From the NCBI GenBank assembly GCA_003157775.1, contig PMKP01000130.1:1767-48556 (forward strand): a stretch of 46,790 nt of DNA. Direction: 5' to 3'. Position numbers and translations under genes: made by a program. Each line of letters opens with the position of its first letter. Position 1 is the stretch's first letter. The DNA is from Myxococcales bacterium. GTDB lineage: Bacteria > Myxococcota_A > Polyangia > Fen-1088. Shown piece by piece: positions 2,955-28,088 of the stretch. The notes under the pieces are model-generated. The model did no database searches, was not told the origin of the DNA, and saw only the letters and a list, made by a program, of their open reading frames with translations.

Positions 2955-4619
2955 CTACCGAAGCCATCCCGGAGGCACTTCCGGCGTGGGCAGGGTCGGG
3001 AAGACGCAGGGCTGGGGCGTACTCCCATCGGTTCTGATGTCGGTCACCGTGGCCCCTTGGCCGGCGGGCGTGAAGTTGACGTTTCCGGGGCCGAGCGTGA
3101 TGTTGGCAAACTCCGCTTCCACGTCCAGGGGGCCCAGGTTGTCGATGATCACGTTGTCCAGCGTGACCGGACCAACCGGTCGGGCCGCATTGAAGCCCTC
3201 GATGGTCACCACCGGCCGCTGCACACCCATGCAGGTCACGTGGTGGATGTTCTGGAAGGTCAGCGTCCTGAAGTCGGGATACAAGGTTCCAGCGAATTGG
3301 GGATTGTATGCAGTGCTGACCAAGATCGCGTTGGTCATGTCGCGCATGCAGATGTTGCTGTACGAGATATTGTTGACCAACCCTCCCCGGCTCTCGTCGG
3401 ACTTCACGCGAATCCCATTGAAATCCGACGTGGTTGCGTCGTACCCCACCGGGCGAGAATCCGCATCAATAGTGAGGTCGTAGATACTCACGTTCTCGAC
3501 CCCGACGTGGGGCACGCCGTCGTGTGAGGCGTCGGTTCCGTAGGTCTCACTGCCGATCGACATCCCGTGACCGGTTCCGAAGTGGTTGTGCGCGACGACC
3601 AACTCGGATACCAGGTGGCCACCTTTGATCGCAATTTGATCGTCCCCGGTGCTGATGGTGCTGCAGGCAATGACACCACACTGCGCGACGCTGCCCTCTC
3701 CGGGGTCGACACCGTCGGTATTGCGCGCGAAACTCGGCGTCAGCACGTCTCCCCGGCTGTTGGTCCAGCGCGAGGGCGTGAGGATGGTGATGCCCCAGAC
3801 GATGAATCCCTTGCCAGGGCTCGAACAATCCCCGTCAGCCGGGTACGAGGTCAGCTTGACGTGGAACTTGGGCGAATTGTGCAGGGTGATCCGGTACAAC
3901 AGCAAGCCTGTGGTTTTCGTGGCCGTGTTGATCAGGGTGGGATTCCCTATACTGCCGTCGATTGCGCGGAGGGCATAGGAGGACTGCCACCAGGAGTAGT
4001 CCTTCCCAAGCAACGGCTCGCCCCCTTGGCCATCAATGACCCCGTCGCCCACGATGCCGGGACTGGTGCCACCCACAGTGATGAAGTCGTTGCACGCACC
4101 CGAATCACTGATACCCAGAAGGCCACAATTCCCGGTCTTCTGATAGAGATCGGGGTTGCGCGAGGCGTACAGGGTGGTCCCGGCATCGATCCACAGCGTG
4201 ACGCTGGTGACCTGCAAATGTCCCGCGACGAAGGCATGGTTCGGGCCGTCGCTCACCAGCTTGACCGCCCGGCCCTGGCACGCGGAGAGGGCTGCTTGAA
4301 TCCGGTCCGTGTCCAGGGGGTTGTTGGGGTCGTCTTCGACTGGCGCCAATTTGGTCGCTGGCAAGGTCTGACAGACGTCGGTCGGGAGAGTTGGTTCCGG
4401 AGGTAGGTTGGGATCGTCGGCGCCACAAGCTACGCCGCCGGTCGACTCGGCCGGGGCGGGCACGGTGCCACAAACGTAGTCGATGGCCGGAATGTCGTCA
4501 TTGGTGCCGCAGGCGGTGATGCCAAGCAGTAAGACTGCCCACCCAAGGTCGAGCAGTCCCGCTCGTGACAATCGCACGAGCGCCTGCGCAACCATCAGAC
4601 CATTCCGTTGCATCCTCAT
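2955..4619 (-). CDS. Glycoside hydrolase family 28 (polygalacturonase-like)
   Basis: GH28 catalytic motifs NTDGVDP, DDQIAIK and GHGMSIGSE; N-terminal hydrophobic signal. Confidence 0.88.
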   Translation of the reverse strand: MRMQRNGLMVAQALVRLSRAGLLDLGWAVLLLGITACGTNDDIPAIDYVCGTVPAPAESTGGVACGADDPNLPPEPTLPTDVCQTLPATKLAPVEDDPNNPLDTDRIQAALSACQGRAVKLVSDGPNHAFVAGHLQVTSVTLWIDAGTTLYASRNPDLYQKTGNCGLLGISDSGACNDFITVGGTSPGIVGDGVIDGQGGEPLLGKDYSWWQSSYALRAIDGSIGNPTLINTATKTTGLLLYRITLHNSPKFHVKLTSYPADGDCSSPGKGFIVWGITILTPSRWTNSRGDVLTPSFARNTDGVDPGEGSVAQCGVIACSTISTGDDQIAIKGGHLVSELVVAHNHFGTGHGMSIGSETYGTDASHDGVPHVGVENVSIYDLTIDADSRPVGYDATTSDFNGIRVKSDESRGGLVNNISYSNICMRDMTNAILVSTAYNPQFAGTLYPDFRTLTFQNIHHVTCMGVQRPVVTIEGFNAARPVGPVTLDNVIIDNLGPLDVEAEFANITLGPGNVNFTPAGQGATVTDIRTDGSTPQPCVFPTLPTPEVPPGWLR

Positions 4620-4668
4620 CAGGTCAAGTCGAGTTCACGCTGTTGCGGCGAACCAATTGCGTACTCAC

Positions 4669-5472
4669 TCAGCATCCCTGGCCACCGGGGCATGGCCAAG
4701 CCGATGTGCTGGCACAGGTCCACTTGCCCGGCGTCCCAGCCGCTGTGGCTGGGCACACACAGTAGCCCTGCTTGGTGGCGCCGGTCGAGTCGGCGTAGTT
4801 GCCATTGAGGTTACAGGGCACACAGTCGAGCACGTTACAGGATGTGCTCGCCTGCGGTGCCACGTCCGTGGGACAAGTCGGGTCGGCGACAAATGGGGTT
4901 GCAATCTTGTAGCAGGAATAGTCCCCCGGCGGGAAACTGCAGCCCGACTGCTCGACGTAGCTTCCAGCCGTGCAGGTTTCCGACTTGAAGCCGATGCTCT
5001 TGGGCCCGCAGGTCTTGTAGCAAAGCTGCGGATCCATCGCCGTGCAGTCCCCAGCCTTGGTAGGGGAACTGCCCGCGGCCGTCATGAGCGTTGCGCACGA
5101 TGGCTGGAAGGCGCTGGTCCCGCCGTCGCCTGTGCCCGTGCTTTGACCCGCGTCGATTGTGCCGCCTGTCGCAGGCGCGCTGGTAGCACCACCCGTGCCG
5201 ATTGTGCCGCCCGTCGCAGGCGCACTGGTGGCACCACCTGTGCCGATCGCCCCGCCCGTCGCAGGCGCGCTGGTGGCACCACCCGTGTCGATGGTCCCGC
5301 CCATCGCAGGCGCACCCGTGACACCACCCGTGCCGGTCACCCCGCCCGTCAGCGTTCCGATCGTACCCCCGGCGCCGGTCGTGCTGGGATTGTTGCTCCC
5401 GCAGCCCTGAAGAAGGAACACCTGCGACAAGAGCGCCACAGTTCCAATGTACGCTGCAGTCCGTATGGTCAT
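4669..5472 (-). CDS. Lipoprotein with 15-aa TGG tandem repeats and a Cys-rich C-terminal domain
   Basis: MTIRTAAYIGTVALLSQVFLLQGCGS lipobox; tandem TGGATSAPATGGTIG units; Cys-rich C-terminus. Confidence 0.78.
   Translation of the reverse strand: MTIRTAAYIGTVALLSQVFLLQGCGSNNPSTTGAGGTIGTLTGGVTGTGGVTGAPAMGGTIDTGGATSAPATGGAIGTGGATSAPATGGTIGTGGATSAPATGGTIDAGQSTGTGDGGTSAFQPSCATLMTAAGSSPTKAGDCTAMDPQLCYKTCGPKSIGFKSETCTAGSYVEQSGCSFPPGDYSCYKIATPFVADPTCPTDVAPQASTSCNVLDCVPCNLNGNYADSTGATKQGYCVCPATAAGTPGKWTCASTSAWPCPGGQGC
5159..5338. repeat. 45-bp minisatellite, 4 units, in the lipoprotein linker
   Basis: Four consecutive near-identical 45-nt units (gtgccgcctgtcgcaggcgcgctggtagcaccacccgtgccgatt...). Confidence 0.85.
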
Positions 5473-5580
5473 CGAATCCCTCGCTTTCTTCTTTGGGGTT
5501 GTTCCTTGCTCGCATATCCAGACGGCCCCGGAGGCTCTCTGAGTCAAACATCCAGGTACCAAGGCTGCTTGTCGGTTCCA

Positions 5581-5608
5581 TTGGTGCCCGCTGCCAGGTT
5601 TTCTTTCG
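5581..5608 (-). promoter_or_regulatory. 28-nt motif CGAA-N14-CGGGCACCAA upstream of the lipoprotein-GH28 operon
   Basis: Minus strand: CGAAAGAAAACCTGGCAGCGGGCACCAA, about 109 nt upstream of the start at 5472. Confidence 0.7.
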
Positions 5609-5620
5609 CGCATTTTTGGC

Positions 5621-5648
5621 CGAAGGAGTTTGGGGCGGCGGGCACTAA
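5621..5648 (+). promoter_or_regulatory. 28-nt motif CGAA-N14-CGGGCACTAA upstream of the porin gene
   Basis: CGAAGGAGTTTGGGGCGGCGGGCACTAA, about 112 nt upstream of the start at 5760. Confidence 0.75.
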
Positions 5649-5759
5649 GCATCGGTAGGGCACCATGCGCATGCAAGTACTCAAGGCCGTTTGCCATGGG
5701 CAGAAGCGCTTTCTCTGGCTTTCTGCGTGCCCCCTCTTTCACCTCGGAGAGTTCCACAC

Positions 5760-7382
5760 ATGAAGGATCGATCGACGCCAGACTCAAGCAAGCTCCGAAG
5801 TCTCATCGCAATTGCGGTCACTCTCGGAGCGGGCGCCGGTTTTGCACGGGCAGAACAGGCTTCGGAGATCAGCCCGACGGCCGAACCACCTGCGGCGCCG
5901 GCTGATAGATCCTCGTCGGCACCTGTCGAAGCTGCGCCGTCCCCTGCGCAGGAAGCAGCCGGCGCACCGATGCCGGCCGCCGTCCCGCCAGCCCCCGCGG
6001 TGCCCCCGCCACCCCCAACGCGCCCTGCCGTCGAAGCGGCACCAGCGGAAGCGACGCCCACTTCCTGGTTCGCCCGACCGCCGTTGACCCTGGCCCTGGG
6101 CGAGGGCGCCCGAAAGTGGGCGGTCACTCTCTACGGATTCGTAGAGGCCGATGCCATCTTCGACACCACGCGGAGCTACAGTGATTCGATCGGCAGCGCA
6201 CTGGTGGCCCGCAGCGATACCTACGATGGACGCACGGGGCGCACCCAGTTCTCGATACGGAACACCCGGCTGGGCTTCGCCTTCGAGTCCCCGCTCATCG
6301 GGCAAGTGAAGCCGTCGGCGGCAGTAGAAGCTGACTTCTTCGGCCACCAGGAGGGCCCACCAACCACGTCCGAAGACACGTACTTCGACAGTCCGACGTT
6401 TCGGATAAGGCATGCATTCGTGAAGCTCGCGAATCCGTACGTGGACGTCTTGATGGGCCAGACCTACGACGTCTTCGGCTGGCAGAACTACTTTTCCCCA
6501 TGTTCAGTCGAATTCCTAGGACTGCCCAATCAGCTCTTTTCGCGCAATATGCAATTGCGTGTCTCTCATGCCTTCAATGCAGACGGCCCGGTCAGCGTCG
6601 ATGTCGCTGCTTCGGCAGTGCGCCCTGTCCAGCGTGACGCGGAAATTCCCGACGCCAACGCCGGGGTGCGCTTCAGTCTCAACGGTTGGAAGGGGATCAC
6701 CACGCCGGGAAACGTGGGGACTGTCGCGTTGCCTCTCTCCCTTGGCGTGTCAGGTACTGTGCGACAATTCAAGGCGAACGCATTCACCCCACCCCCCGTG
6801 CAGAACTCCAACAGCGCGACGGGCTGGGGATTGTCGGTAGACGCCCTCATCCCGATTATTCCCGCCGCCCGCGCGGAGGACCGGGGCAACCGGCTTACCC
6901 TGGTCGGTTCTTTCGTCAAGGGCAGCGGGATTTCCGACCTCATCACCGCGAACGGCGGGGCGCAGTTCCCGACCTTGCCCAACCCTGCCCAGGCTACCCC
7001 TCCTCCGGTGTACACCGCGAACATTGACAACGGCCTCGTGTCCTTTGACGCAAGTGGCGTTCTCCACACCATTGATTGGCAGGCCCTCCGGGTCGGGTTT
7101 CAGTATTACTTGCCGCCGTGGGGAGGGCGAATGTTTCTTTCTGCAAACTACACCCAGGCTCACTCGGGAAACCTGGCCAAGCTCTTCCCAAGGGGCGGCG
7201 CAGAGATAGAGCTGCTGGTCAACGTCGCGGACACCTCACGCTACGCCGACCTCAACCTCTTCTGGGACGCGACACCTGCGGCGCGGATTGGGCTATCTGG
7301 GCAGTACACCCAGGTCGAGTACCTCGACGGAGCCAAGCCGCACAACATCCGCGGCATGGTCCAGACGGTCTACCAATTTTAG
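5760..7382 (+). CDS. Outer-membrane porin (DcaP-like beta-barrel) with Ala/Pro-rich N-terminal region
   Basis: Signal peptide, YGFVEADAIFDTTRSY, RLGFAFESP, beta-barrel alternation, terminal aromatic F (VQTVYQF). Confidence 0.75.
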   Translation: MKDRSTPDSSKLRSLIAIAVTLGAGAGFARAEQASEISPTAEPPAAPADRSSSAPVEAAPSPAQEAAGAPMPAAVPPAPAVPPPPPTRPAVEAAPAEATPTSWFARPPLTLALGEGARKWAVTLYGFVEADAIFDTTRSYSDSIGSALVARSDTYDGRTGRTQFSIRNTRLGFAFESPLIGQVKPSAAVEADFFGHQEGPPTTSEDTYFDSPTFRIRHAFVKLANPYVDVLMGQTYDVFGWQNYFSPCSVEFLGLPNQLFSRNMQLRVSHAFNADGPVSVDVAASAVRPVQRDAEIPDANAGVRFSLNGWKGITTPGNVGTVALPLSLGVSGTVRQFKANAFTPPPVQNSNSATGWGLSVDALIPIIPAARAEDRGNRLTLVGSFVKGSGISDLITANGGAQFPTLPNPAQATPPPVYTANIDNGLVSFDASGVLHTIDWQALRVGFQYYLPPWGGRMFLSANYTQAHSGNLAKLFPRGGAEIELLVNVADTSRYADLNLFWDATPAARIGLSGQYTQVEYLDGAKPHNIRGMVQTVYQF

Positions 7383-9076
7383 AGTGTCGCGATGTCGGGC
7401 AGGCTTCCGTCGGCGTTGCGCTTGGCAGCAGACGCCTTCGCCGAAATGGCGGAGGCGGTCACGCGATTCTGAACGGTGATGCCCTGAAAGTCCCCGCCGT
7501 TTGAGTTTGTATTGTTCCACGCTCCACACTTGTCGCAGGTCATGGCAGCCGGGTTGGAGTTGTTGGTGAAGGCCCAGTCAGAGATGTGAGACCCGCCCTT
7601 GCTCTGATTGTTGTCAAAGCCAAAGTCGTTGGACATGACGTGCGCCGCGGACACCTTGTTTCCACCCATCTTGAAACCATTTCCATTGCTGCCAGACCCT
7701 GCCGTCGTGGCCCCCATGTTGAACGCCCAGGAATTTTTCACCGTCACGGGCGAAGTCCAAGCATAGAAGTCAAAGCCGTCGTCGGCATTGTCCCAGGATC
7801 GGCAGCCGTCGAAGACGTTTCCCGAGCCAGCCGTGGCCGAATTCTCCTTGGCGCAGAATCCATCTGCGTTGGCGCCGTTGCACGGCGTGTCGGCGTTTTG
7901 GTGCGAGTCACAATTGAGAATTGTGTTGTTCATCCCGCTGTTCGCATACCCCGAGCCAGCGCGGATGCTAATCCCACAGTCCCCATTATTGTGGACATCG
8001 CAGTCCTGAACGACGATATACTGGCCTTGGACGCTGATACCCCATCCATTGGCATTCTTGACCTCGAAACCCTTGAACAAGTAGTAGTCGGCAGACAGAT
8101 CGACGGCACCGTGATTGGTTTGATCGGCTGCGGCACTGCCGTCGGAATTGACCAGCGTGCTCTTGCTCATCGTACCGCCTGGATCACAAGCCTTGATCTG
8201 CGGCTGGGTCGAGAAATCGAGGACGGGCTTGCTCGTTGCGTCGGGATCTGCCTGAATTGTGATGATTCTGGATGCTGTCCCCATCCTGGTCTTCTTGGTT
8301 TGGAATCGGGCTGCGAGTTGGTAGGTTCCCGCCTTCACACACATCGTCGATAGACTGCCCGTACAGACCGCGCCGTTTGCGACACCCGTACCGGGCGGAC
8401 ACAAGAGATCATAGCCATGTGCAAGGGTCGCGACCGGGGAGGCCTGGGTACCGGGATCTGAATCGTTCCCATCCGACGCCACCCAGATATCGCAGGCACC
8501 GGAGCTGGTCGCTCCCCCGGCCGGGGATCCCGCCGTCGACGTGGCACCACCTGTCGCAGTTGTCCCGCCGGTTTTGGCCGTCCCACCCGTGCCTGTCGAG
8601 CCGCCCATGGCGCCGCCCGCGGTCGACGTTGCTCCGCCGGTCGCGCTGGTCGTGCCTCCGGTTTTTGCCGTGCTGCCACCCGTCGCGCTGGTCGAGCCAC
8701 CGGTCGCGGCAGTCGTGCCTCCGGTCGAAGCCTGTGTCCCGCCGAAAGCCTTGGTAGTCCCACCCACCGAGCTTGTGCCTCCCGATGAGGGTGTCGTGCC
8801 ACCGAGCGCGGTCGAGGTTCCGCCCGAAACAGCGGCCACACCACCCGCCGAAGCCGTAATCCCGCCCGGCGACGTGGTCGTGCCGCCCGCTGAAGTCACT
8901 CCGCCCGAGGGGCTGGTCGTCCCACCTGTGTTGGTCGTCCCGCCGCTGGCTGTGGCCCCACCATTGTTTCCAGTGCCGCCGGTTCCGGTGTCGCTGCTGC
9001 AGCCCGAGGTCATCAGGCCAAGCGAGAGCAAGGCGCCCAATCCAAGGTCAAAAACAAGACTGCGTTTCATCTTCAT
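7379..9076 (-). CDS. Lipoprotein, TGG-rich linker plus polysaccharide lyase family 9-like pectate lyase
   Basis: Lipobox LGLMTSGCSS; IWVASDGNDSDPGTQASPVATL; NADGFCAKEN...GNVFDGCRSWDNADDGFDFY; parallel beta-helix pattern. Confidence 0.83.
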   Translation of the reverse strand: MKMKRSLVFDLGLGALLSLGLMTSGCSSDTGTGGTGNNGGATASGGTTNTGGTTSPSGGVTSAGGTTTSPGGITASAGGVAAVSGGTSTALGGTTPSSGGTSSVGGTTKAFGGTQASTGGTTAATGGSTSATGGSTAKTGGTTSATGGATSTAGGAMGGSTGTGGTAKTGGTTATGGATSTAGSPAGGATSSGACDIWVASDGNDSDPGTQASPVATLAHGYDLLCPPGTGVANGAVCTGSLSTMCVKAGTYQLAARFQTKKTRMGTASRIITIQADPDATSKPVLDFSTQPQIKACDPGGTMSKSTLVNSDGSAAADQTNHGAVDLSADYYLFKGFEVKNANGWGISVQGQYIVVQDCDVHNNGDCGISIRAGSGYANSGMNNTILNCDSHQNADTPCNGANADGFCAKENSATAGSGNVFDGCRSWDNADDGFDFYAWTSPVTVKNSWAFNMGATTAGSGSNGNGFKMGGNKVSAAHVMSNDFGFDNNQSKGGSHISDWAFTNNSNPAAMTCDKCGAWNNTNSNGGDFQGITVQNRVTASAISAKASAAKRNADGSLPDIATL

Positions 9077-9150
9077 TCATTCTCCTGCTGTCAGCGTCCA
9101 CACGCCCGCACGTTGTCGGCGGTCACCTGTGTGCTGTGCCTTACCGATGC

Positions 9151-9178
9151 TTAGTGCCCGGTCCCCTGGACCTCTTCG
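9151..9178 (-). promoter_or_regulatory. 28-nt motif CGAA-N14-CGGGCACTAA upstream of the PL9 gene
   Basis: Minus strand: CGAAGAGGTCCAGGGGACCGGGCACTAA, about 75 nt upstream of the start at 9076. Confidence 0.75.
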
Positions 9179-9287
9179 GCCGAAACCTAACGGCGCCGAC
9201 GCGTTAGGCTTTTGGCCCGGGCGTTTCACGCGCCCCGGCAGCCATGCCGAATACTCCGGAACGCGAAAACGCGACACCCTTGGCGAA

Positions 9288-9315
9288 CGAAAAAACCTTC
9301 GTCGACGGGCACCAA
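9288..9315 (+). promoter_or_regulatory. 28-nt motif CGAA-N14-CGGGCACCAA upstream of the PL1 gene
   Basis: CGAAAAAACCTTCGTCGACGGGCACCAA, 54 nt upstream of the GTG at 9369. Confidence 0.7.
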
Positions 9316-9368
9316 CCAGTACAGCAAGTAGACTTGCTATCTGAACAACAGAAAGCTCAGGTGTTCCC

Positions 9369-11030
9369 GTGTCGAAGATCCTCAAATACCTCCCATGCCT
9401 CTGCTGGCTTTTCGTGTGTCACTGCAGCAGCGGATCAGGCTCGTCGTTGAGCCAACCCGACGCCTCCAACAGCACAGCCGACGCTGCAACCGCGACAGGT
9501 GGGGCGGCGGGCACCTCTGCGCTCGCAACCGGCGGTGGGCAGGGAACCGGAGGAATCACGGGAAGCGGCGGCGTCGTGAATGCAGGCGGCAGTACCTCGA
9601 CGGGCGGAAGCAATCCGCTCGGCGGGACTCTCCCCACTGGGGGCACCACCGGTGCAGGAGGGTTGACTGCCACCGGCGGTGGAGTCTCAGGTGCGGGCGC
9701 CACGTCGAACGGGGGCAGCCAGACGACCGGCGGCACTACCAACAAGGGCGGCACGACCGCGACCGGCGGCACCACGCCGAATGGAGGGACCCAGGTTCTC
9801 GGTGGGAGCACCAGCATGGGTGGCACGACAGTAGTCGGAAGCACCATGGGCGGGAACACGGCAGGGACGATGGCAGCAGGTGGGACCAAGACGCTGGGTG
9901 GTACGACCGCGAATGGCGGCACTCCTGCCAAGGGTGGTGCTGGCTCGGGTGGCGGTGCAATGGGGGGAGCCGCCGGCGCCTCGGCCGGCACCGGCGCTCC
10001 GGAAACCAGCCCGCTTGGCTATGGCAAGGCTACGACCGGAGGTGGCAGCGCCACTGCGGTTGATGTGGCCGACATGGCGGCAATGCAGGCCGCTATCGAT
10101 GGCTACTCGGGCGACGGCGGCCTGGTGCTCAAATACACCGGCAAGTTCAACTTCTCGAGTATCACCGATCCGTGCGTGCAGCACACCTTGGCGGCACAAA
10201 CCATCGAAATCAAGAAGAAGAACGACATCACTATTGTGGGTGCGGATGGCTCGGCCGCCAATTTCGGCATCCACATTGCCTCTTCTTCAAGCAACATCAT
10301 CATTCGCAACATGACCATCGCTCTGACACCAGGCGGTGGCGATTCTGACATGATTTCGTTGGAAGGCATGAGTGGCGGCGTTCCGACCAACATCTGGATC
10401 GACCACAACGAGCTCTACAGTTCAATGGCAGATTGCCCAGGCGCCGGTGACACGTCCTTCGATGGCGCGATCGACATCAAGAAGGGGGCCGACAACGTCA
10501 CTATCTCGTATAACTACCTACACGACCATCACAAGGTGTCGATGAACGGCTACAGTGATGACGACTCTGCGGTTCGGCACGTCACCTTTCACCACAACCT
10601 TTTCGAGAACGTCGGCTCGCGGACACCCCTGCAGCGCTACGGCTACTCGCATGTGCTCAATAACTACTTCTACCAGGTCTTGGTTTCTGGCATTAATGTC
10701 CGCATGGGCGGTTACTCGCTGGTCGAAGCCAACTACTTCGAGACCGTGCTGAACCCAGTGACTGCGCGTGACAGCTCGGCTATCGGCTACTGGGACCTGC
10801 GTAACAATAACCTCGCTACCAAAGCGGACGTGTCTGCCGGCAATGCTTTCGGCATCACTTGGGACGCAGGTAGTGCTGGCACTGTCAATGCAACCGACTG
10901 GACCACGACCGCGACTTTTCCGGAAGCGCTTGGCTACAGCTACACGGCGGACCCGTTCCAGTGCGTGCACGATGGGCTGCGAGCGGTAGCTGGCGCGGGC
11001 AAAGGCTTGGCTACGCTGAAGTGCAAATAG
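9369..11030 (+). CDS. Lipoprotein, TGG-rich linker plus polysaccharide lyase family 1-like pectate lyase
   Basis: GTG start; lipobox CLCWLFVCHCSS; NIWIDHNELYS, DGAIDIKKGADNVTISYNYLHDHHKVSMNG, VTFHHNLFENVGSRTPLQRYG. Confidence 0.88.
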   Translation: MSKILKYLPCLCWLFVCHCSSGSGSSLSQPDASNSTADAATATGGAAGTSALATGGGQGTGGITGSGGVVNAGGSTSTGGSNPLGGTLPTGGTTGAGGLTATGGGVSGAGATSNGGSQTTGGTTNKGGTTATGGTTPNGGTQVLGGSTSMGGTTVVGSTMGGNTAGTMAAGGTKTLGGTTANGGTPAKGGAGSGGGAMGGAAGASAGTGAPETSPLGYGKATTGGGSATAVDVADMAAMQAAIDGYSGDGGLVLKYTGKFNFSSITDPCVQHTLAAQTIEIKKKNDITIVGADGSAANFGIHIASSSSNIIIRNMTIALTPGGGDSDMISLEGMSGGVPTNIWIDHNELYSSMADCPGAGDTSFDGAIDIKKGADNVTISYNYLHDHHKVSMNGYSDDDSAVRHVTFHHNLFENVGSRTPLQRYGYSHVLNNYFYQVLVSGINVRMGGYSLVEANYFETVLNPVTARDSSAIGYWDLRNNNLATKADVSAGNAFGITWDAGSAGTVNATDWTTTATFPEALGYSYTADPFQCVHDGLRAVAGAGKGLATLKCK

Positions 11031-11042
11031 GCGGAGGGGAAC

Positions 11043-13574
11043 ATGAAACCCATCCTGTCGACGTCCATCCTGCTTGTCGGTCTGGTTTCCCTCGCGCCTT
11101 TGCTGGCTGCGGGTGGAGCCTGCACTTCGGCAAAAGTTTCGGCAAGCGGCGGCGGCGGGTGCGGTGGGACGGTTGACGGTGGCGACGTCGGCGGTAATGA
11201 TGGAGGGACCAGTGCCGGCACAGGCGGACGGATCCTGGTCGTCCCTGACGCAGGGCTGGTCGATGCTTGCGTTCCGGCCGCCCCGGCTGTCGCGTGCAAA
11301 CCCGCGGGTGGCGCGTATTGCGGCCTGATCGGTGATGGCTGCAACGGCCAGATCGACTGCGGCGACAACTGCCCGGCCGACTGGACGTGCAATGCTACCA
11401 GTCACACATGCGTCGGCGGGCCAAACTGTAATCCCCCGTTCCAATGCACTTACACGACTGGCTCCGCCAGCGGCTCCTACTGTGGCAATATCTCCGATGG
11501 CTGTGGTCACAAGCTCCCCTGCGGTGACGACTGCGGTAGCCTCAAGCCGGGCTGGGTATGCGAAAACAACCTCTGCGTGGGCAGCGCTCAGGTCTGCACA
11601 CCCACCACCTGCGATCCTGTGGCCGGGGCGCGATATTGCGGAACCGTGGGAGATAGTTGCGGGCGCGGGATTGACTGTGGCGACAATTGCGCCAGCCTCA
11701 AGACGGGCTGGGTGTGCAACACCGCCACCAGTTCCTGCGTGGGAGGGACTGACTGCAAGAAGCTCGTCTGTGACGGCAGCCCGAATGCGAGGTACTGTGG
11801 TACGGTTGGGGATGGCTGCGGCGAAACCGTCAACTGCGGAGATACCTGCTCGGCCTTCCAGGCCGGCTGGGTGTGCGACACGAACCAGGGCCTATGCACC
11901 GGCGGGCCCAGTTGTGTTCGGACCGCGTGTACCACAACGGGGGGGGGGCAGTACTGCGGTGACATTGGCGACGGATGTGGTGGGACGCTTCACTGCGGCG
12001 ACTGCCCAGGCAGCGGGACCTGCGCCAACAACGTCTGTCCTGTCCTAAGTTGCGGTTCGATGTGCATTGCGCAGGTGAAATGCACCGCCGGCACCACCAG
12101 CATCACCGGAACCGTATACGATCCAGCGGGCAAGGTTCCGCTCTACAACGTCATCGTCTACGTTCCCGATGCGCCGCTGGCCACTATCTCGACCGGCGCC
12201 TCCTGCGACAAATGCTCGGCGTCGGTGTCGGGCAAGCCTATCACCACGGCAATCACGGATTCGAGTGGCAACTTCAAGTTGGACAATGTCCCGGTGGGCG
12301 TGGACTTTCCCCTGGTTATGCAGGTGGGCAAGTGGCGCCGCCAGGTCACTATCAAGGCGTCGGAAGTCAGCCAATGCACCACCACTGCAATCGTGGACGC
12401 GTCAAGCGGCCAGGACCGACGCTTGCGCCTGCCGCGCAACAAGAGCGAAGGCAGCATCCCGAAGATGGCCATCACCGCCGGTGATGCCGACCGGCTGCAA
12501 TGCCTGTTTACCCGAATGGGCATCGATACCGCGGAGTTCACCAACCCCGACGGTGCGGGTTCTATGAATATCTATGAAGACAACTACTCAGTGAGTGCGA
12601 CGGCCGGCTACGACAGCGGGTTCAACGGCGGGGCACTCTGGCCGTCTGCTAACGTACTATGGAGCGACATCAAGACCATGATGAAGTACGACGTCATTCT
12701 CATGGCCTGCGGTGGAAGCAACGAGCGCTACGAAGGAGACAAGGACCCGCTGCTTCCCGATGCCAACGGCTACTTCCCGCCGAATGGGAGTGGCAACATT
12801 CTCACCGACGCCATGAAGTTGAACATGGTCCAATACGTGAACAGTGGCGGCCGCGCCTTTGCCGAACACTACCACTGGGGTTGGCTGAGGTCGTACCCGC
12901 CCCGCAAGGACACCACCAAGTACCCATGCGTGGCCGGGGGTACGGCCAACCCCTGCTCGATCGCGCCCGACGGACACGCCCCTTTCGGTGAGGTGGCGAC
13001 CTGGGACACGGGCGGGAGCAGCTCCCTGGGCGACAGCATCACCGCCTTGGTCGACACGTCCTTCGCCAAGGGCCAGGCCTTTGGCCAGTGGCTCGTCTCT
13101 GTCGCCGCATCGACAACCCAAGGATCGATCCTGCTCGGCAGTGACGTGAAATCCACCGCCCTTACCACCCTGCCGGGGATCTCGCAACAGTGGATCTACC
13201 AGACCACGCCTTCATCCTATGTCCACTACTTCACCTTCAACGCCCCGGTGGGCCAGCCAACCACGGCTCAGTGCGGTCGGTTCGTGTTCACCGGCCTGCA
13301 TGTGGCGACCGCGGTGATCTCGAACCCCGACGCCAAAGGCACCTTCCCCAGCAACTGTGTCATCACCCGCGACCTGTCCGGGCCGGAAAAGGCCCTGGAG
13401 TTCATGATCTTCGACCTAACCTCGTGCCTGATACCCGACAATGGCATTCCCGCGCCGCCCCCAGTCGGGGGAAGTTCTGCACCTACCACGCCGCCCGAAG
13501 CTGGCGGGGCGCCTCCGCCACCACCACCACCACCACCACCACCACCACCACCACCACCCATCAAGATCGAGTAG
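11043..13574 (+). CDS. Secreted Cys-rich repeat protein with carboxypeptidase-regulatory-like domain and poly-Pro C-terminus
   Basis: Signal peptide; several YCGxxGDGCGxxxxCGDxC...GWVCD...CVGG repeats; TSITGTVYDPAGKVPLYNVIVYVP beta-sandwich-like segment; terminal P-run. Confidence 0.75.
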   Translation: MKPILSTSILLVGLVSLAPLLAAGGACTSAKVSASGGGGCGGTVDGGDVGGNDGGTSAGTGGRILVVPDAGLVDACVPAAPAVACKPAGGAYCGLIGDGCNGQIDCGDNCPADWTCNATSHTCVGGPNCNPPFQCTYTTGSASGSYCGNISDGCGHKLPCGDDCGSLKPGWVCENNLCVGSAQVCTPTTCDPVAGARYCGTVGDSCGRGIDCGDNCASLKTGWVCNTATSSCVGGTDCKKLVCDGSPNARYCGTVGDGCGETVNCGDTCSAFQAGWVCDTNQGLCTGGPSCVRTACTTTGGGQYCGDIGDGCGGTLHCGDCPGSGTCANNVCPVLSCGSMCIAQVKCTAGTTSITGTVYDPAGKVPLYNVIVYVPDAPLATISTGASCDKCSASVSGKPITTAITDSSGNFKLDNVPVGVDFPLVMQVGKWRRQVTIKASEVSQCTTTAIVDASSGQDRRLRLPRNKSEGSIPKMAITAGDADRLQCLFTRMGIDTAEFTNPDGAGSMNIYEDNYSVSATAGYDSGFNGGALWPSANVLWSDIKTMMKYDVILMACGGSNERYEGDKDPLLPDANGYFPPNGSGNILTDAMKLNMVQYVNSGGRAFAEHYHWGWLRSYPPRKDTTKYPCVAGGTANPCSIAPDGHAPFGEVATWDTGGSSSLGDSITALVDTSFAKGQAFGQWLVSVAASTTQGSILLGSDVKSTALTTLPGISQQWIYQTTPSSYVHYFTFNAPVGQPTTAQCGRFVFTGLHVATAVISNPDAKGTFPSNCVITRDLSGPEKALEFMIFDLTSCLIPDNGIPAPPPVGGSSAPTTPPEAGGAPPPPPPPPPPPPPPPPIKIE
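13518..13556. repeat. (CCA)13 trinucleotide microsatellite
   Basis: Thirteen uninterrupted CCA units encoding the poly-Pro tail. Confidence 0.95.
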
Positions 13575-13709
13575 CCAACCAGCATCTCGTGGACCGTGGA
13601 TCAACGTTGGCGTGGCCTGTCCGTCCCGAAGTCCCCGTAGGGAAAGAGCTAGCCCGCAACGTATTGGATCGCGGTCCGCGAGATCCTGCTTGGCTTTGGT
13701 AGCAGTTGG

Positions 13710-14735
13710 CTACGGCGCAGTAGTCTTCGTCCGTGCCCGCGCCGTGACCTCCAGGCCCTTCTTGGCGCTCTCACGCACAGCCGGCGTTCGGTCGTTTTCG
13801 GCAGTGCGAAAGCGCTGCTCAGCCGCCGACCATTCGTGCGATTCGATCAACAGCCAGCCGAGCATGGCGGACACTTCACCCGCTCGGGGAGACCCTGGGA
13901 AGAGACGCAAGAACTCGTACATGGACTGGCGGGCTTTGGCGACCGAGCCCTGGCGCGCCAGCGCAACCGCTTCCCAGTATCGCGCATCCTCCGCAAGAGC
14001 TGAGGTCGGCGCGGCCTGCAACGCACGCCTCATGGCGGCGATGGCACGAGCATAGTCGCCGGAACGAAATGCCTGCCAACCCTCCGAGAAAGCCAGTTCC
14101 GCCGGGCTGGGTAGGTGCGTGGAATTCGCTGAGGGCGCTGCGGCCGACACTGAGGCCAGCGCCCCTCGTGCTCTGGCGGTAGTCGCTTGCCGCCCAGGAG
14201 CCTTTCCGATGAGGGGAATCCGGTGGCCCCACGCTTCGGCCGAAGGCTCGGTCGATGCGGCAGCAGGAGCCAAGGACGTCCCCTGTGCAGGTGCGGAGAC
14301 GGTTTCGGGCTTTGCCTGTGGCTCGAATAAGGCCTTTTCGCGTGGCCTGCCATGCTCTCGATCGCCGGCGGCCGGGGTTCCCTCTCTCTGCCTCTGCAGC
14401 CATGGGATCGCTACCTTGCCCACAGCCGCAAGCACACCAGTCGCACCAAGGACCACGGCCGCATACACGGCAGCCTGCGCCCACCGTGGCGAGACACGCT
14501 GACGCCGAACCTCGGTTGCCGCAAGCACCAGCGCACTGCGCGTCTGCTGGCGCCGTCCAAGCTCGGGCGCCTTGGTCGGAAGCTGACGGGCCGCTTCGAT
14601 GAGCCTCTTGGTAGCAGCCCATTGCGTTTGACAGTACAGGCACTCGTCCAAGTGCCGCCGCAGTTCCGGAACATCGTCGGGAGACACCGCGCGGCCGATT
14701 TCGGCGAAACGAGGACAAGAGGCGCGTTCGCTCAT
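13710..14735 (-). CDS. Anti-sigma factor: N-terminal zinc-finger (ZAS-like), one TM, C-terminal TPR-like region
   Basis: HLDECLYCQTQW (H-x3-C-x2-C); hydrophobic AAVYAAVVLGATGVLAAVGKVAI; TPR-like C-terminus (AFRSGDYARAIAAMRRALQAAPTSALAEDARYWEAVALARQG); ATGA overlap with the ECF sigma gene. Confidence 0.8.
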   Translation of the reverse strand: MSERASCPRFAEIGRAVSPDDVPELRRHLDECLYCQTQWAATKRLIEAARQLPTKAPELGRRQQTRSALVLAATEVRRQRVSPRWAQAAVYAAVVLGATGVLAAVGKVAIPWLQRQREGTPAAGDREHGRPREKALFEPQAKPETVSAPAQGTSLAPAAASTEPSAEAWGHRIPLIGKAPGRQATTARARGALASVSAAAPSANSTHLPSPAELAFSEGWQAFRSGDYARAIAAMRRALQAAPTSALAEDARYWEAVALARQGSVAKARQSMYEFLRLFPGSPRAGEVSAMLGWLLIESHEWSAAEQRFRTAENDRTPAVRESAKKGLEVTARARTKTTAP

Positions 14736-15337
14736 GGTTGCACCTCCTCAACCGCCGCGCGCAGCGCCCGCCGCGCCTCGAACAGTCGCCGACCCAAAGT
14801 TCCTGGTCGGACGTCGAGTGCCGCGGCCGCATCCGCGCCCGACGTCTCCTCGAGGTCGCACAGAACAAACGCCGCCCGCAGATCGAACGGTAGTTGCGCG
14901 AGAGCCCCTGCCACGCGTTCGACCATCTGGTGGTGCTCCGCAGCCAGGTCGGGCATCTGGCCTGGCGTCGGCTTGATCTCGCCCCACGCCTTGAGGAAGG
15001 ACCGCCTGCGCACCTGATCACGGATGTGGTGGCGCCCCACATTCGCGGCGATACCGAACAGCCAAGTTTTCACTGAGGACTTGCCACGAAAGCGCGCGGC
15101 GGAGCGGAGAGCCTCAAGAAACGTGGTGTGGACCATGTCGTCCAGATCCCACGAGTTGGCGCCCATGAGGCGCGCGAGGAATCGGTGGACGGCATCGCAA
15201 TGACGATCAAACAGTTCGGCCATCGCTCCGGGATCGCGCAAGGCACACGCTGCCACCAGCACTTCGTCGGTGGTATCCGCCAACCACACAGACTTGCGCT
15301 GGAATGGGAGCAGTTTGCCTTCGGTCCTACGGATCAT
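14732..15337 (-). CDS. ECF-family RNA polymerase sigma factor
   Basis: Sigma region 2 (AMAELFDRHCDAVHRFLARLMG...DLDDMVHTTFLEALRSAARFRGKSSVKTWLFGIAANVGRHHIRD) and region 4 (QLPFDLRAAFVLCDLEETSGADAAAALDVRPGTLGRRLFEARRALR). Confidence 0.9.
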   Translation of the reverse strand: MIRRTEGKLLPFQRKSVWLADTTDEVLVAACALRDPGAMAELFDRHCDAVHRFLARLMGANSWDLDDMVHTTFLEALRSAARFRGKSSVKTWLFGIAANVGRHHIRDQVRRRSFLKAWGEIKPTPGQMPDLAAEHHQMVERVAGALAQLPFDLRAAFVLCDLEETSGADAAAALDVRPGTLGRRLFEARRALRAAVEEVQP

Positions 15338-15417
15338 CTTCTCAATCAGCGATTACTATTTCGAGCCCAACGCCGCGTTGACCATTTCCGCGGGCATGGC
15401 CCATATCTTACAGATTG

Positions 15418-15445
15418 TTAGTGCCCGTCGCCCCGGACTTCTTCG
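15418..15445 (-). promoter_or_regulatory. 28-nt motif CGAA-N14-CGGGCACTAA upstream of the ECF sigma/anti-sigma operon
   Basis: Minus strand: CGAAGAAGTCCGGGGCGACGGGCACTAA, about 80 nt upstream of the start at 15337. Confidence 0.75.
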
Positions 15446-15526: not shown

Positions 15527-16594
15527 TCAAGGCGCATGTCCAAGGGGGCCATAGCGAAGGCCGAGTCCTGCGCGCAAGAAGCCCAGCGGTTCGCCCGGCA
15601 GATCGAATCCACCCGAAGTCAGGTGCTTCCGGTGGGCGAACGGCATGATGTCGGCCCGAAGCCCCACATCTGCCGCTAGACCCCAGGCCAGGGGCCAGGA
15701 AAGCATAATCCGGGTCTCCGCGCGTGGTCCAACCGTCGTCGCGTTACCGCCGTGATCGCCCAGTACCGCGGTTGTCGACAACCAACCTGCTCCAAGACCA
15801 ATCCCTGGGCCAAAGGTTCCGGCTCCGATGCGCAGGGGCAGATCTGCGGTCAGGAGCGCGTCGGCGTCGAGGCGGGTCAACGCGCGCTGTTGCTGTTCAT
15901 TGCAGCTTGCGCTCGAACTGTCAGGAACCGCCGTGTACAGAGCACCGATATTCCCCGTGGTGGCCGTGTCGCCAGCAACTTGGATCTCGAGTCCAAGGCA
16001 GAGCGACCGAACCCGCACGCAGGCTCCCAGCCCTGCGCCAATCCACAGAGAGCCATCGGTAGCCAACCAGGTCCCACCTGCGACGGTAACGCTGGCGCCG
16101 GAAGATGCACTTCGATGGGCTGGAACCGGTGACCGGGTCACAACCGGCGCACCTCCAATCGGTGCAGCTTCGGTCGTCGGAATCTCGTGCGGCTCAAGCA
16201 AGGGTCTGGCGAGATCGTCACGCAGCCACGATTCCACCACCGCGGCAGCGATCTCGGCATTCGCGACGATGCGTTCGACAATTTGGCCGTTCCGTTCGTG
16301 TATGGACAGCCGGATCCCCGAAGGATCGGTCTGCACGCGGACTTGCACCGCCTCCACCCCGGCTGACACCACCCGGACGTTGCGATCGGCGAGAGAATGC
16401 CCCACCGCAGATACGATCTCGCTGTCGCCAGTGAGCATCACCAGCGCGGCTCCATCCGCGGAAGCCGCGGATGCCAGAGGCGCGAAGAGCTGCAAGACAA
16501 CTACGGCGATCATGGACTCAGTCGACAAGACTGGGTCGAAACGTCTGGGGAATGCAACCATAAATGGGGTGGCGCAGTGCAAGTCGTGATACAA
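15527..16594 (-). CDS. Hypothetical secreted/outer-membrane protein
   Basis: Long ORF with signal-like MIAVVVLQLFAPLASAASA (alternative start near 16513) and a Gly-rich barrel-like C-terminal half. Confidence 0.6.
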   Translation of the reverse strand: MYHDLHCATPFMVAFPRRFDPVLSTESMIAVVVLQLFAPLASAASADGAALVMLTGDSEIVSAVGHSLADRNVRVVSAGVEAVQVRVQTDPSGIRLSIHERNGQIVERIVANAEIAAAVVESWLRDDLARPLLEPHEIPTTEAAPIGGAPVVTRSPVPAHRSASSGASVTVAGGTWLATDGSLWIGAGLGACVRVRSLCLGLEIQVAGDTATTGNIGALYTAVPDSSSASCNEQQQRALTRLDADALLTADLPLRIGAGTFGPGIGLGAGWLSTTAVLGDHGGNATTVGPRAETRIMLSWPLAWGLAADVGLRADIMPFAHRKHLTSGGFDLPGEPLGFLRAGLGLRYGPLGHAP

Positions 16595-26536: not shown

Positions 26537-27853
26537 CTACGCGACTGTTCGTCGGCGGAGTTTTTCCACCAAAGTCGTGCGATTCATTCCCAGCAACTCG
26601 GCTGCACGATTCTTGTTGCCGCCGGTCCTTTGCAGCGCCTGCTCGATCAGACGATCCTCGAGTTGGGCAAGCAGCAGGCGCAGGTCAACCCCGTTCGGGG
26701 GCAAGTCGACCAAGGAGGGCGAAAGGTCGCTCACGTCCGTACGTAGGCTGGCGGGCAAATCATTGACGGTAACCGGTCGGTCCTTGGCCGCCGATACCAG
26801 ACGGTCCACCGTGAGGCCGAGCTGGCGCACGTTTCCCGGCCAAGAGCAAGCTCCCATCCGGACCAAGACCTCGGGCGAGAACGGGGGCACGGTGCGGCCT
26901 CGGCGCGCGTTGGCGGCGCGGCGGAAATGCTCGACCAGGATGGGGATGTCCTCGGGCCGTTCACGTAGCGGAGGGATCTCCATCGGGATGACGTTGAGCC
27001 GGTAGTAGAGCTCTTCTAGGAATTGGCCATCGCGCGCCACCCGCTCCATGTTCTGGGTGGTGGCGGCCACGATTCGCAGACTCCGTCCCGAGGACTGCGA
27101 CAGGCTTCCCCATTCCTTCATCACCCGCAGCAGGCTCATCTGTGCCTCGCGGGAGAGCCGGGCGATGTCGTCGATGAAGAGCGTGCCGCCGAGTGATGCC
27201 AGGACATTGCCCGCAGGTTGCGCCGCGCTGTCCTCGGATCCGGCCGACGCCGGCTCTGCCGCCGTGTCCGGGCTGGTTCCGGGCTGGACCGTGACAAAGG
27301 GGCCCGCCCGGCGCGCGCTGCAGGCGTGGATGAGACGGGCGACGACTTCCTTGCCCGTGCCGTCATCGCCACGGACCAGAACGCTGGCGCCGGAGTCGGC
27401 AGCCTGAGTGATGCGCTCGAGGACCACACGCATGGCGGGGTGGTCGCCGATGAGACACGCCCCGCTGGTTCGTTCGCCCAGGGTGTCGCTGGCTTGGTCC
27501 TGCAGGACGCGCGCGACGATCCCAACCGCTAGGTCATGGTGGAACGGCCGGGGCAGAAACTCGTTCGCGCCTGCGCGAAAGGCCGTGACCACTTCAGCGG
27601 CCGTTCCCTGGCCAGCCAGAGCCACCACCGGTATCCAGGGTTGACATGCCTGCGCGGTGCCTATCACCTGCGCTCCACCGTCGGGGAGGTTCATGTCGAT
27701 GATGCAAAGATCGAAAGGCTCTGCGCGCAGCCTAGCGCGCGCTGCCTCGACGGTGGCAGCCACGACGCCTTCGCCCTCCAGCGACGTTGCGACGTGCTGG
27801 AGGGCTGCTTGTCCGACAGGATCGGCGTCAACCAGAAGGAACCGCTTTGGCAT
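26537..27853 (-). CDS. NtrC-family response regulator (receiver-AAA+-Fis HTH) lacking a recognisable GAFTGA loop
   Basis: Receiver-like N-terminus (LLVDADPVG, IIDMNLPDG, FLPRPF); Walker A GDDGTGKE; GGTLFIDDIARLS; EELYYRLNVIPMEIPPLRER; SWPGNVRQL; Fis-type HTH GGNKNRAAELLGMNRTTLVEKLRR. Confidence 0.85.
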   Translation of the reverse strand: MPKRFLLVDADPVGQAALQHVATSLEGEGVVAATVEAARARLRAEPFDLCIIDMNLPDGGAQVIGTAQACQPWIPVVALAGQGTAAEVVTAFRAGANEFLPRPFHHDLAVGIVARVLQDQASDTLGERTSGACLIGDHPAMRVVLERITQAADSGASVLVRGDDGTGKEVVARLIHACSARRAGPFVTVQPGTSPDTAAEPASAGSEDSAAQPAGNVLASLGGTLFIDDIARLSREAQMSLLRVMKEWGSLSQSSGRSLRIVAATTQNMERVARDGQFLEELYYRLNVIPMEIPPLRERPEDIPILVEHFRRAANARRGRTVPPFSPEVLVRMGACSWPGNVRQLGLTVDRLVSAAKDRPVTVNDLPASLRTDVSDLSPSLVDLPPNGVDLRLLLAQLEDRLIEQALQRTGGNKNRAAELLGMNRTTLVEKLRRRTVA

Positions 27854-28088
27854 GCCTTCTCGCAGGTATCGGCGGGAGAGATCCGGGGCTAAAGCCACGG
27901 GCTACCCACCTAGGCTTGGCGCCCAAGAGAGCACATCCATTGCTGAGAAAGCAACAGGGTTTCGCGTCTCAACCCTGCGCTGCGCAGAAGGGGCTCTATT
28001 CCGTCGCGAGACCATCATCGGCGCCTTGACGGAGAGCGTTTGACGACGGAGATTTGCGCCGAAGCAGACCTGGGAGCCAGGCGATCCG

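Follow-up and report, generated by a model that had tools for sequence, protein, structure and literature searches.

A conserved two-box motif is the probable promoter of an autoregulated ECF sigma factor and of pectin-degradation genes in a genus of Myxococcota

Genes for pectin-degrading enzymes, a porin and an extracytoplasmic function (ECF) sigma factor lie close together on a contig of an uncultured Myxococcales bacterium (lineage Polyangia; Fen-1088), and all of them are preceded by the same short motif. Which protein reads this motif, and is it a promoter or the operator of a separate regulator? We investigated this question in a window of 46,790 nucleotides (GenBank assembly GCA_003157775.1, contig PMKP01000130.1, positions 1,767 to 48,556 of the forward strand), in which all positions are counted from the first letter. 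The original prediction, made from the letters of the window alone, had proposed that five copies of a 28-nt motif of fixed geometry, CGAA-N14-CGGGCACYAA, form the promoter (or operator) of an autoregulated ECF regulon for pectin degradation. Our analysis supports this proposal in its promoter form: the motif is very probably the promoter of an autoregulated ECF sigma factor, whose regulon in this genus would be pectin degradation. A promoter is favored over an operator because the motif lacks dyad symmetry and keeps a constant orientation and a constant spacing, whereas its direct recognition by the ECF factor is a step that we infer.

All five copies were found at the predicted positions and strands, and no match occurred in 100 dinucleotide shuffles. 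The copy at 5581–5608 on the minus strand (CGAAAGAAAACCTGGCAGCGGGCACCAA) ends 108 nt before the ATG at 5472 of an operon of lipoprotein, GH28 and lipoprotein genes, and the one at 5621–5648 on the plus strand lies 111 nt from the porin ATG at 5760. Two further copies precede pectate lyase genes, at 9151–9178 (minus strand, 74 nt to the start of PL9) and 9288–9315 (plus strand, 53 nt to the GTG at 9369 of PL1; the alternative start ATG at 9395 would make this gap 79 nt). The fifth, at 15418–15445 on the minus strand, is located 80 nt from the ATG at 15337 of the ECF sigma/anti-sigma operon. Every copy is intergenic and oriented toward the start codon, and the annotated gaps lie inside the range of 50–115 nt that had been claimed for them. 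The separation of 16 bp between CGAARR and CACYAA was likewise confirmed. Only the two boxes are common to the five copies, the 14-nt interior varying from copy to copy. The first two copies are divergent, their CGAA boxes being separated by 12 bp, a layout also kept in the related genome G005 (4667–4694 and 4707–4734 of locus L089); at this distance two polymerases would hardly be able to occupy both promoters simultaneously.

In the assembly as a whole (5,478,163 bases, or 5.48 Mb, in 485 contigs; 87% complete) the exact pattern has five matches, all of them the copies of the window, compared with one match for a reversed control pattern. The motif is rare and confined to this cluster rather than common and random, as a genome-wide scan suggested along with the prediction might have revealed. 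With one mismatch allowed seven matches were obtained, six of them within coding sequence, and with two mismatches 137 matches compared with 112 for the control, mostly chance. Since the latter scan is dominated by chance, we accepted weak sites only if they are conserved, a rule under which a second GH28 site was still recovered.

Conservation in relatives, also proposed earlier as a check, was observed both upstream of orthologues within the genus and across the class, there in the company of ECFs that are 44–54% identical. Close relatives of the window ECF are found in G005 (96%), G001 (90%), G006 and G004 (both 88%). The exact motif occurs at 2–6 places per genome in G000, G001, G003, G004, G005 and G006, and in the sibling genomes these places precede orthologues of the target genes of the window. 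The copy of the GH28 operon is kept in G005 and G001, that of the porin in G005, G001, G004 and G006, that of PL9 in G001, G003 and G005 as well as in G004 with one mismatch, and that of PL1 in G001 and G003–G006. No motif was found at the porin of G003. Upstream of the ECF gene the motif is present, and could be aligned, in five genomes of the genus; in G004 and G006 its spacer is longer by 1 bp and the box reads AGGGCACTAA.

The motif alone also led to genes on other contigs, namely a PL3 pectate lyase (Pfam PF03211) and a second GH28 (C328 of the own genome), where GTAA replaces CGAA. In another genome the box of one PL1 orthologue begins TGGGCAC. The predicted consensus, although exact for all five copies of the window, is slightly too strict for these two sites. 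A refined pattern allowing the observed variants, SKAARVR-N11-YGGGCACYAA, gave 30 matches in six genomes of the genus compared with one control match in the seven genomes searched, a count that is not independent, as the pattern was partly derived from the sites it counts. All 30 matches are located upstream of PL1, PL3, PL9, GH28, lipoprotein-GH28, porin or ECF genes, and the absence of matches elsewhere is independent of pattern fitting. One of the 30 precedes a PL3 remnant; near 8600–9185 of L101 (G006:C145) the PL3 appears internally deleted, with an intact promoter motif directly before the C-terminal part. One G003 site lies before PL9, and the same contig continues with a pectinesterase gene and a GH28 gene on the same strand.

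A further genome of the genus, G002 (93% complete), has porin (67% identical), GH28, PL3 and PL1 genes. No close ECF was detected there (best E-value 1e-19 compared with 1e-113 or better in the ECF-bearing relatives), nor was gene B, the upstream neighbor of the ECF gene described below. The motif is absent throughout the G002 genome and does not appear even at two mismatches in the porin-GH28 and PL3 loci. The upstream region of its porin is unrelated to that of the other genomes, and 45 other ECF-like genes are present. Judging from the assembled sequence, motif and ECF are absent together while the targets remain, which provides a natural loss control. Among the genomes of the family without the ECF, exact matches lie within coding sequence in five of six cases; those in G008, G010, G014 and G015, all inside coding sequence, are taken as chance. 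G017 (74% complete, no close ECF relative detected) shows an exact intergenic motif before a small Cys-containing lipoprotein gene (L119:2683–3321), and this site may be real.

A scan of GTDB genomes showed that close members of the ECF family are almost confined to Myxococcota. At the distant loci within the identity range given above, the motif (0–2 mismatches) is followed by an operon that contains lipoprotein, gene B, ECF and anti-sigma genes. A count of CGAA-Nk-GGGCAC over the 4.5 kb preceding each of 27 distant ECF genes gave 15 matches at k=15 and 0–2 at any other k. In 12 of the 27 loci the motif is found in sense orientation upstream of the ECF, compared with none antisense, none reversed, one downstream and 0.09 on average in Markov surrogates of the loci. 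Of 13 distant sites, 12 have GG at positions 5–6, which was no requirement of the search. Mapped on the ECF tree, loci with the motif group together, if imperfectly (7 changes of the label compared with 12.7 when shuffled), and the more divergent members are without the motif. G045 carries a second copy just after the anti-sigma gene and before another lipoprotein gene (L104:13076–13825), which suggests a small regulon in distant relatives too.

Several observations weigh against the promoter reading, in addition to the partly circular count of 30 matches. G003 (88% complete) has three motif sites, yet no close ECF or gene B was found in it, probably owing to an assembly gap. In G011, which belongs to the same family and has an ECF of 45% identity, no motif is seen, and about half of the distant loci are without the motif in its strict form. 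The boxes of the collected sites, CGAAR and CACYAA, are not the classic AAC at -35 and CGT at -10; later ECF definitions no longer require this pair (PMC8103513). In G005 the porin ATG follows only 8 nt after the motif (L089:4707–4743) compared with 111 nt in the window, reflecting either a deletion of the leader or an assembly error, and if the assembly is right the porin mRNA would be nearly leaderless.

The alternative that survives best, improbable though we consider it, is an operator function of the motif, to which an ordinary DNA-binding regulator encoded at another place would bind, controlling the ECF and pectin genes from housekeeping promoters. An oriented 28-bp upstream site can equally be an activator site, and the sites of G003 occur without a detected ECF. 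However, the motif shows no dyad symmetry (4 of 28 positions are self-complementary, and the arms are no better than shuffled ones), no TATAAT-like box was found downstream above the shuffled level, and the distance between the boxes is fixed across distant genomes. The motif is missing from G002 along with ECF and gene B, and the only recognizable DNA-binding protein of the conserved operon is the ECF itself. Less likely again is a different ECF paralogue as the cognate sigma factor, with the linked ECF as merely one of its targets. Genomes of the genus encode 22–45 ECF-like proteins each, and G003 carries the motif without an ECF of the window type, but the motif tracks the window ECF family and its operon over 44–96% identity, and G002 possesses its many other ECF-like genes and yet no motif.

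A sigma-54 promoter is highly unlikely. In such a promoter GGGCAC would be the -24 element (TGGCAC), which it resembles, and an activator gene is present in the window at 26537–27898; a -12 GC at the needed distance, however, was found at 0, 2 or 4 of the 46 sites, according to the register chosen, and promoters of this type have no element to which the strictly conserved upstream CGAA could correspond. The lack of the -12 box in the tested sites largely refutes this reading. Just as implausible is a short mobile repeat or a chance effect of composition, since in spite of several similar copies inside 10 kb only the two boxes are shared, the copies occupy the same place before orthologous genes in separate genomes, the shuffled and reversed controls are near zero and the exact matches in family genomes without the ECF are nearly always coding.

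The preferred reading, a promoter of the linked ECF, is consistent with the proteins encoded beside it. The ECF gene (14732–15337, minus strand) encodes 201 residues with the Pfam domains PF04542 and PF08281 and scores above the cut-off of the NCBIfam sigma70-ECF superfamily model; among the NCBIfam models listed, none of equivalog or subfamily rank reaches its cut-off. Pfam places region 2 at 42–110 and region 4 at 142–192, separated by a linker of 31 residues and without a match to region 3, which is the structure of an ECF (group IV) factor: sigma2 and sigma4 only, with a linker of less than about 50 residues.

The adjoining gene at 13710–14735 (minus strand) overlaps the ECF gene by 4 bases, and this pairing is kept in the genus and at many distant loci. 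Its predicted architecture is that of a membrane anti-sigma factor, with N-terminal helices, one membrane helix and a C-terminal TPR domain. The N-terminal helical domain carries the zinc motif Hx3Cx2C (HLDECLYC in window protein P0002), as in class I anti-sigma (ASDI) proteins, whose zinc type is defined by this motif (PMC7406223). The AlphaFold model shows helices at 83–117 and the TPR at 211–338. A FecR domain is present in the relatives at L102 and L129 and has been lost from the anti-sigma of the window.

Directly upstream of the ECF gene, in the window as in more than 20 loci across Myxococcota, lies gene B (15527–16513, minus strand). Its AlphaFold model (mean pLDDT 79.7) consists of a signal peptide, a periplasmic beta-alpha-beta-beta-beta-alpha domain at 24–106, a disordered linker and an eight-stranded outer-membrane barrel at 140–321, with NspA and OmpA as the best Foldseek matches. 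A signal might be relayed from gene B to the TPR domain and on to the zinc domain of the anti-sigma.

We propose that CGAARR would serve as the -35-like and CACYAA, within the extended CGGGCACYAA, as the -10-like element of a core promoter with a 16-bp gap, read by RNA polymerase carrying the ECF encoded at 14732–15337. The ECF would be held by the adjacent membrane anti-sigma, with the zinc domain inside and the TPR domain outside, until a signal from outside, probably a pectin fragment whose presence is passed on via the periplasm and gene B, releases it. The freed ECF would then transcribe its own operon together with the PL1, PL9, GH28 and porin genes, and also PL3 and the second GH28, which are found at other loci. 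The same pair of ECF and promoter would, in distant Myxococcota, instead drive the operon that contains the lipoprotein, gene B, ECF and anti-sigma genes, and hence the pectin regulon seems to have been recruited at a later stage. GAA and CACYAA are as far apart as GAA and GTCTGA in E. coli sigma-E promoters such as rpoH P3; taken as a lead only, a geometry of this kind would put the transcription starts about 6–8 nt after the motif.

Known systems share parts of this arrangement. Autoregulated ECFs of the SigW/RsiW type with a class I (Hx3Cx2C) anti-sigma (PMC8103513, PMC7406223) are alike in having sigma2 and sigma4 only with a short linker, a downstream overlapping membrane anti-sigma with a zinc motif and a two-box promoter before the own gene. 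They differ in their boxes, which are AAC and CGT instead of CGAARR and CGGGCACYAA, and the anti-sigma of the window has a C-terminal TPR domain and an outer-membrane barrel, gene B, conserved next door. FecI/FecR/FecA likewise places an outer-membrane partner beside an ECF and a membrane anti-sigma, and distant relatives of our anti-sigma contain a FecR domain. Here, however, the partner is an eight-stranded NspA/OmpA-like barrel with its own periplasmic domain and not a TonB receptor, none of which is found among the annotated genes of the cluster, and the window anti-sigma is without the FecR periplasmic domain; in FecI systems, autoregulation is unusual (PMC8103513). A barrel tied to an ECF/anti-sigma pair and to polysaccharide genes is known as Dma, with Das, in Bacteroides (PMC13088901), although in this other phylum, Bacteroidota, barrel and anti-sigma are fused, whereas in the window they are separate genes. 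ECF control of polysaccharide genes has been described, in Bacteroides among others (PMC10766802). In clostridia, alternative sigma factors are known to govern pectin regulons: the promoter code of sigma-I3 of Clostridium thermocellum and sigma-I11 of P. cellulosolvens marks pectin-degrading genes as well as the sigma factor's own gene (PMC6056542). SigI belongs to another sigma family with its own type of anti-sigma and an A-tract -35 box, and its CGAA is part of the -10 box, unlike the upstream CGAA of the window motif.

For the ECF family of the window, its motif or their combination we found no report in the open-licence literature searched. The analysis points to an ECF that is probably autoregulated, whose promoter is non-classic yet deeply conserved and which has a pectin regulon at genus level; the proposed mechanism is well constrained. 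In this way an ECF of an uncultured lineage can be linked, from sequence alone and aided by a natural loss control, to a promoter code, a regulon and a likely substrate. The promoter looks orthogonal, and the sigma-promoter pair would have remained the same despite about 50% protein divergence and a change in the controlled genes. It appears that in this peat-fen bacterium of the Myxococcota a single, dedicated sigma factor activates the complete gene set for pectin digestion, and the arrangement of barrel and TPR anti-sigma would extend what is known of polysaccharide sensing by ECFs without a TonB receptor. The chances seem evenly balanced for the wider view that these genes form an undescribed trans-envelope signalling module of Myxococcota, in which an outer-membrane mini-barrel with a sensor domain in the periplasm is combined with a membrane anti-sigma of TPR or FecR-TPR type and with an ECF that has CGAA/CGGGCACYAA as its private promoter. 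The ancestral target of such a module would be its own lipoprotein operon, and in one fen genus it would have been rewired into a pectin master switch by placing the unchanged promoter at unlinked pectinase genes.

Among the other genes of the cluster, the PL1 pectate lyase (9369–11030, plus strand; PF00544, 4.3e-49) and the PL9 pectate lyase (7379–9076, minus strand; PF22842, 2.3e-17, with NCBIfam PelN below cut-off) are both lipoproteins. The outer-membrane porin-like protein (5760–7382, plus strand) matches PF13609 at 2.8e-4, below the gathering cut-off, and its orthologues are 65–81% identical. The left operon, on the minus strand, begins with a Cys-rich lipoprotein (4669–5472) whose translation contains a lipobox and which is kept in G005 and G001; this frame, and not the open reading frame 4835–5581, is the correct one. 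It is followed by the GH28 polygalacturonase lipoprotein (2955–4619; PF00295, 6.6e-32) and by a secreted Cys-rich protein (2085–2951) that adjoins GH28 in G003 and G006 too. A secreted protein of 843 residues (11043–13574, plus strand) with an N-terminal Cys-rich repeat region and a proline tail starts 12 nt after PL1, with which it probably shares an operon in the window; in four sibling genomes its gene adjoins the ECF/anti-sigma genes. In G005 and G001 (L088, L093) the PL9/PL1 pair is followed by the gene of the tagaturonate epimerase UxaE, and in G005 the glucuronate isomerase gene UxaC is also nearby, so that genes of the galacturonate pathway lie beside motif-bearing genes yet carry no motif themselves. 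A GH26 enzyme gene at 468–2039 likewise lies beside the pectin cluster and has no motif.

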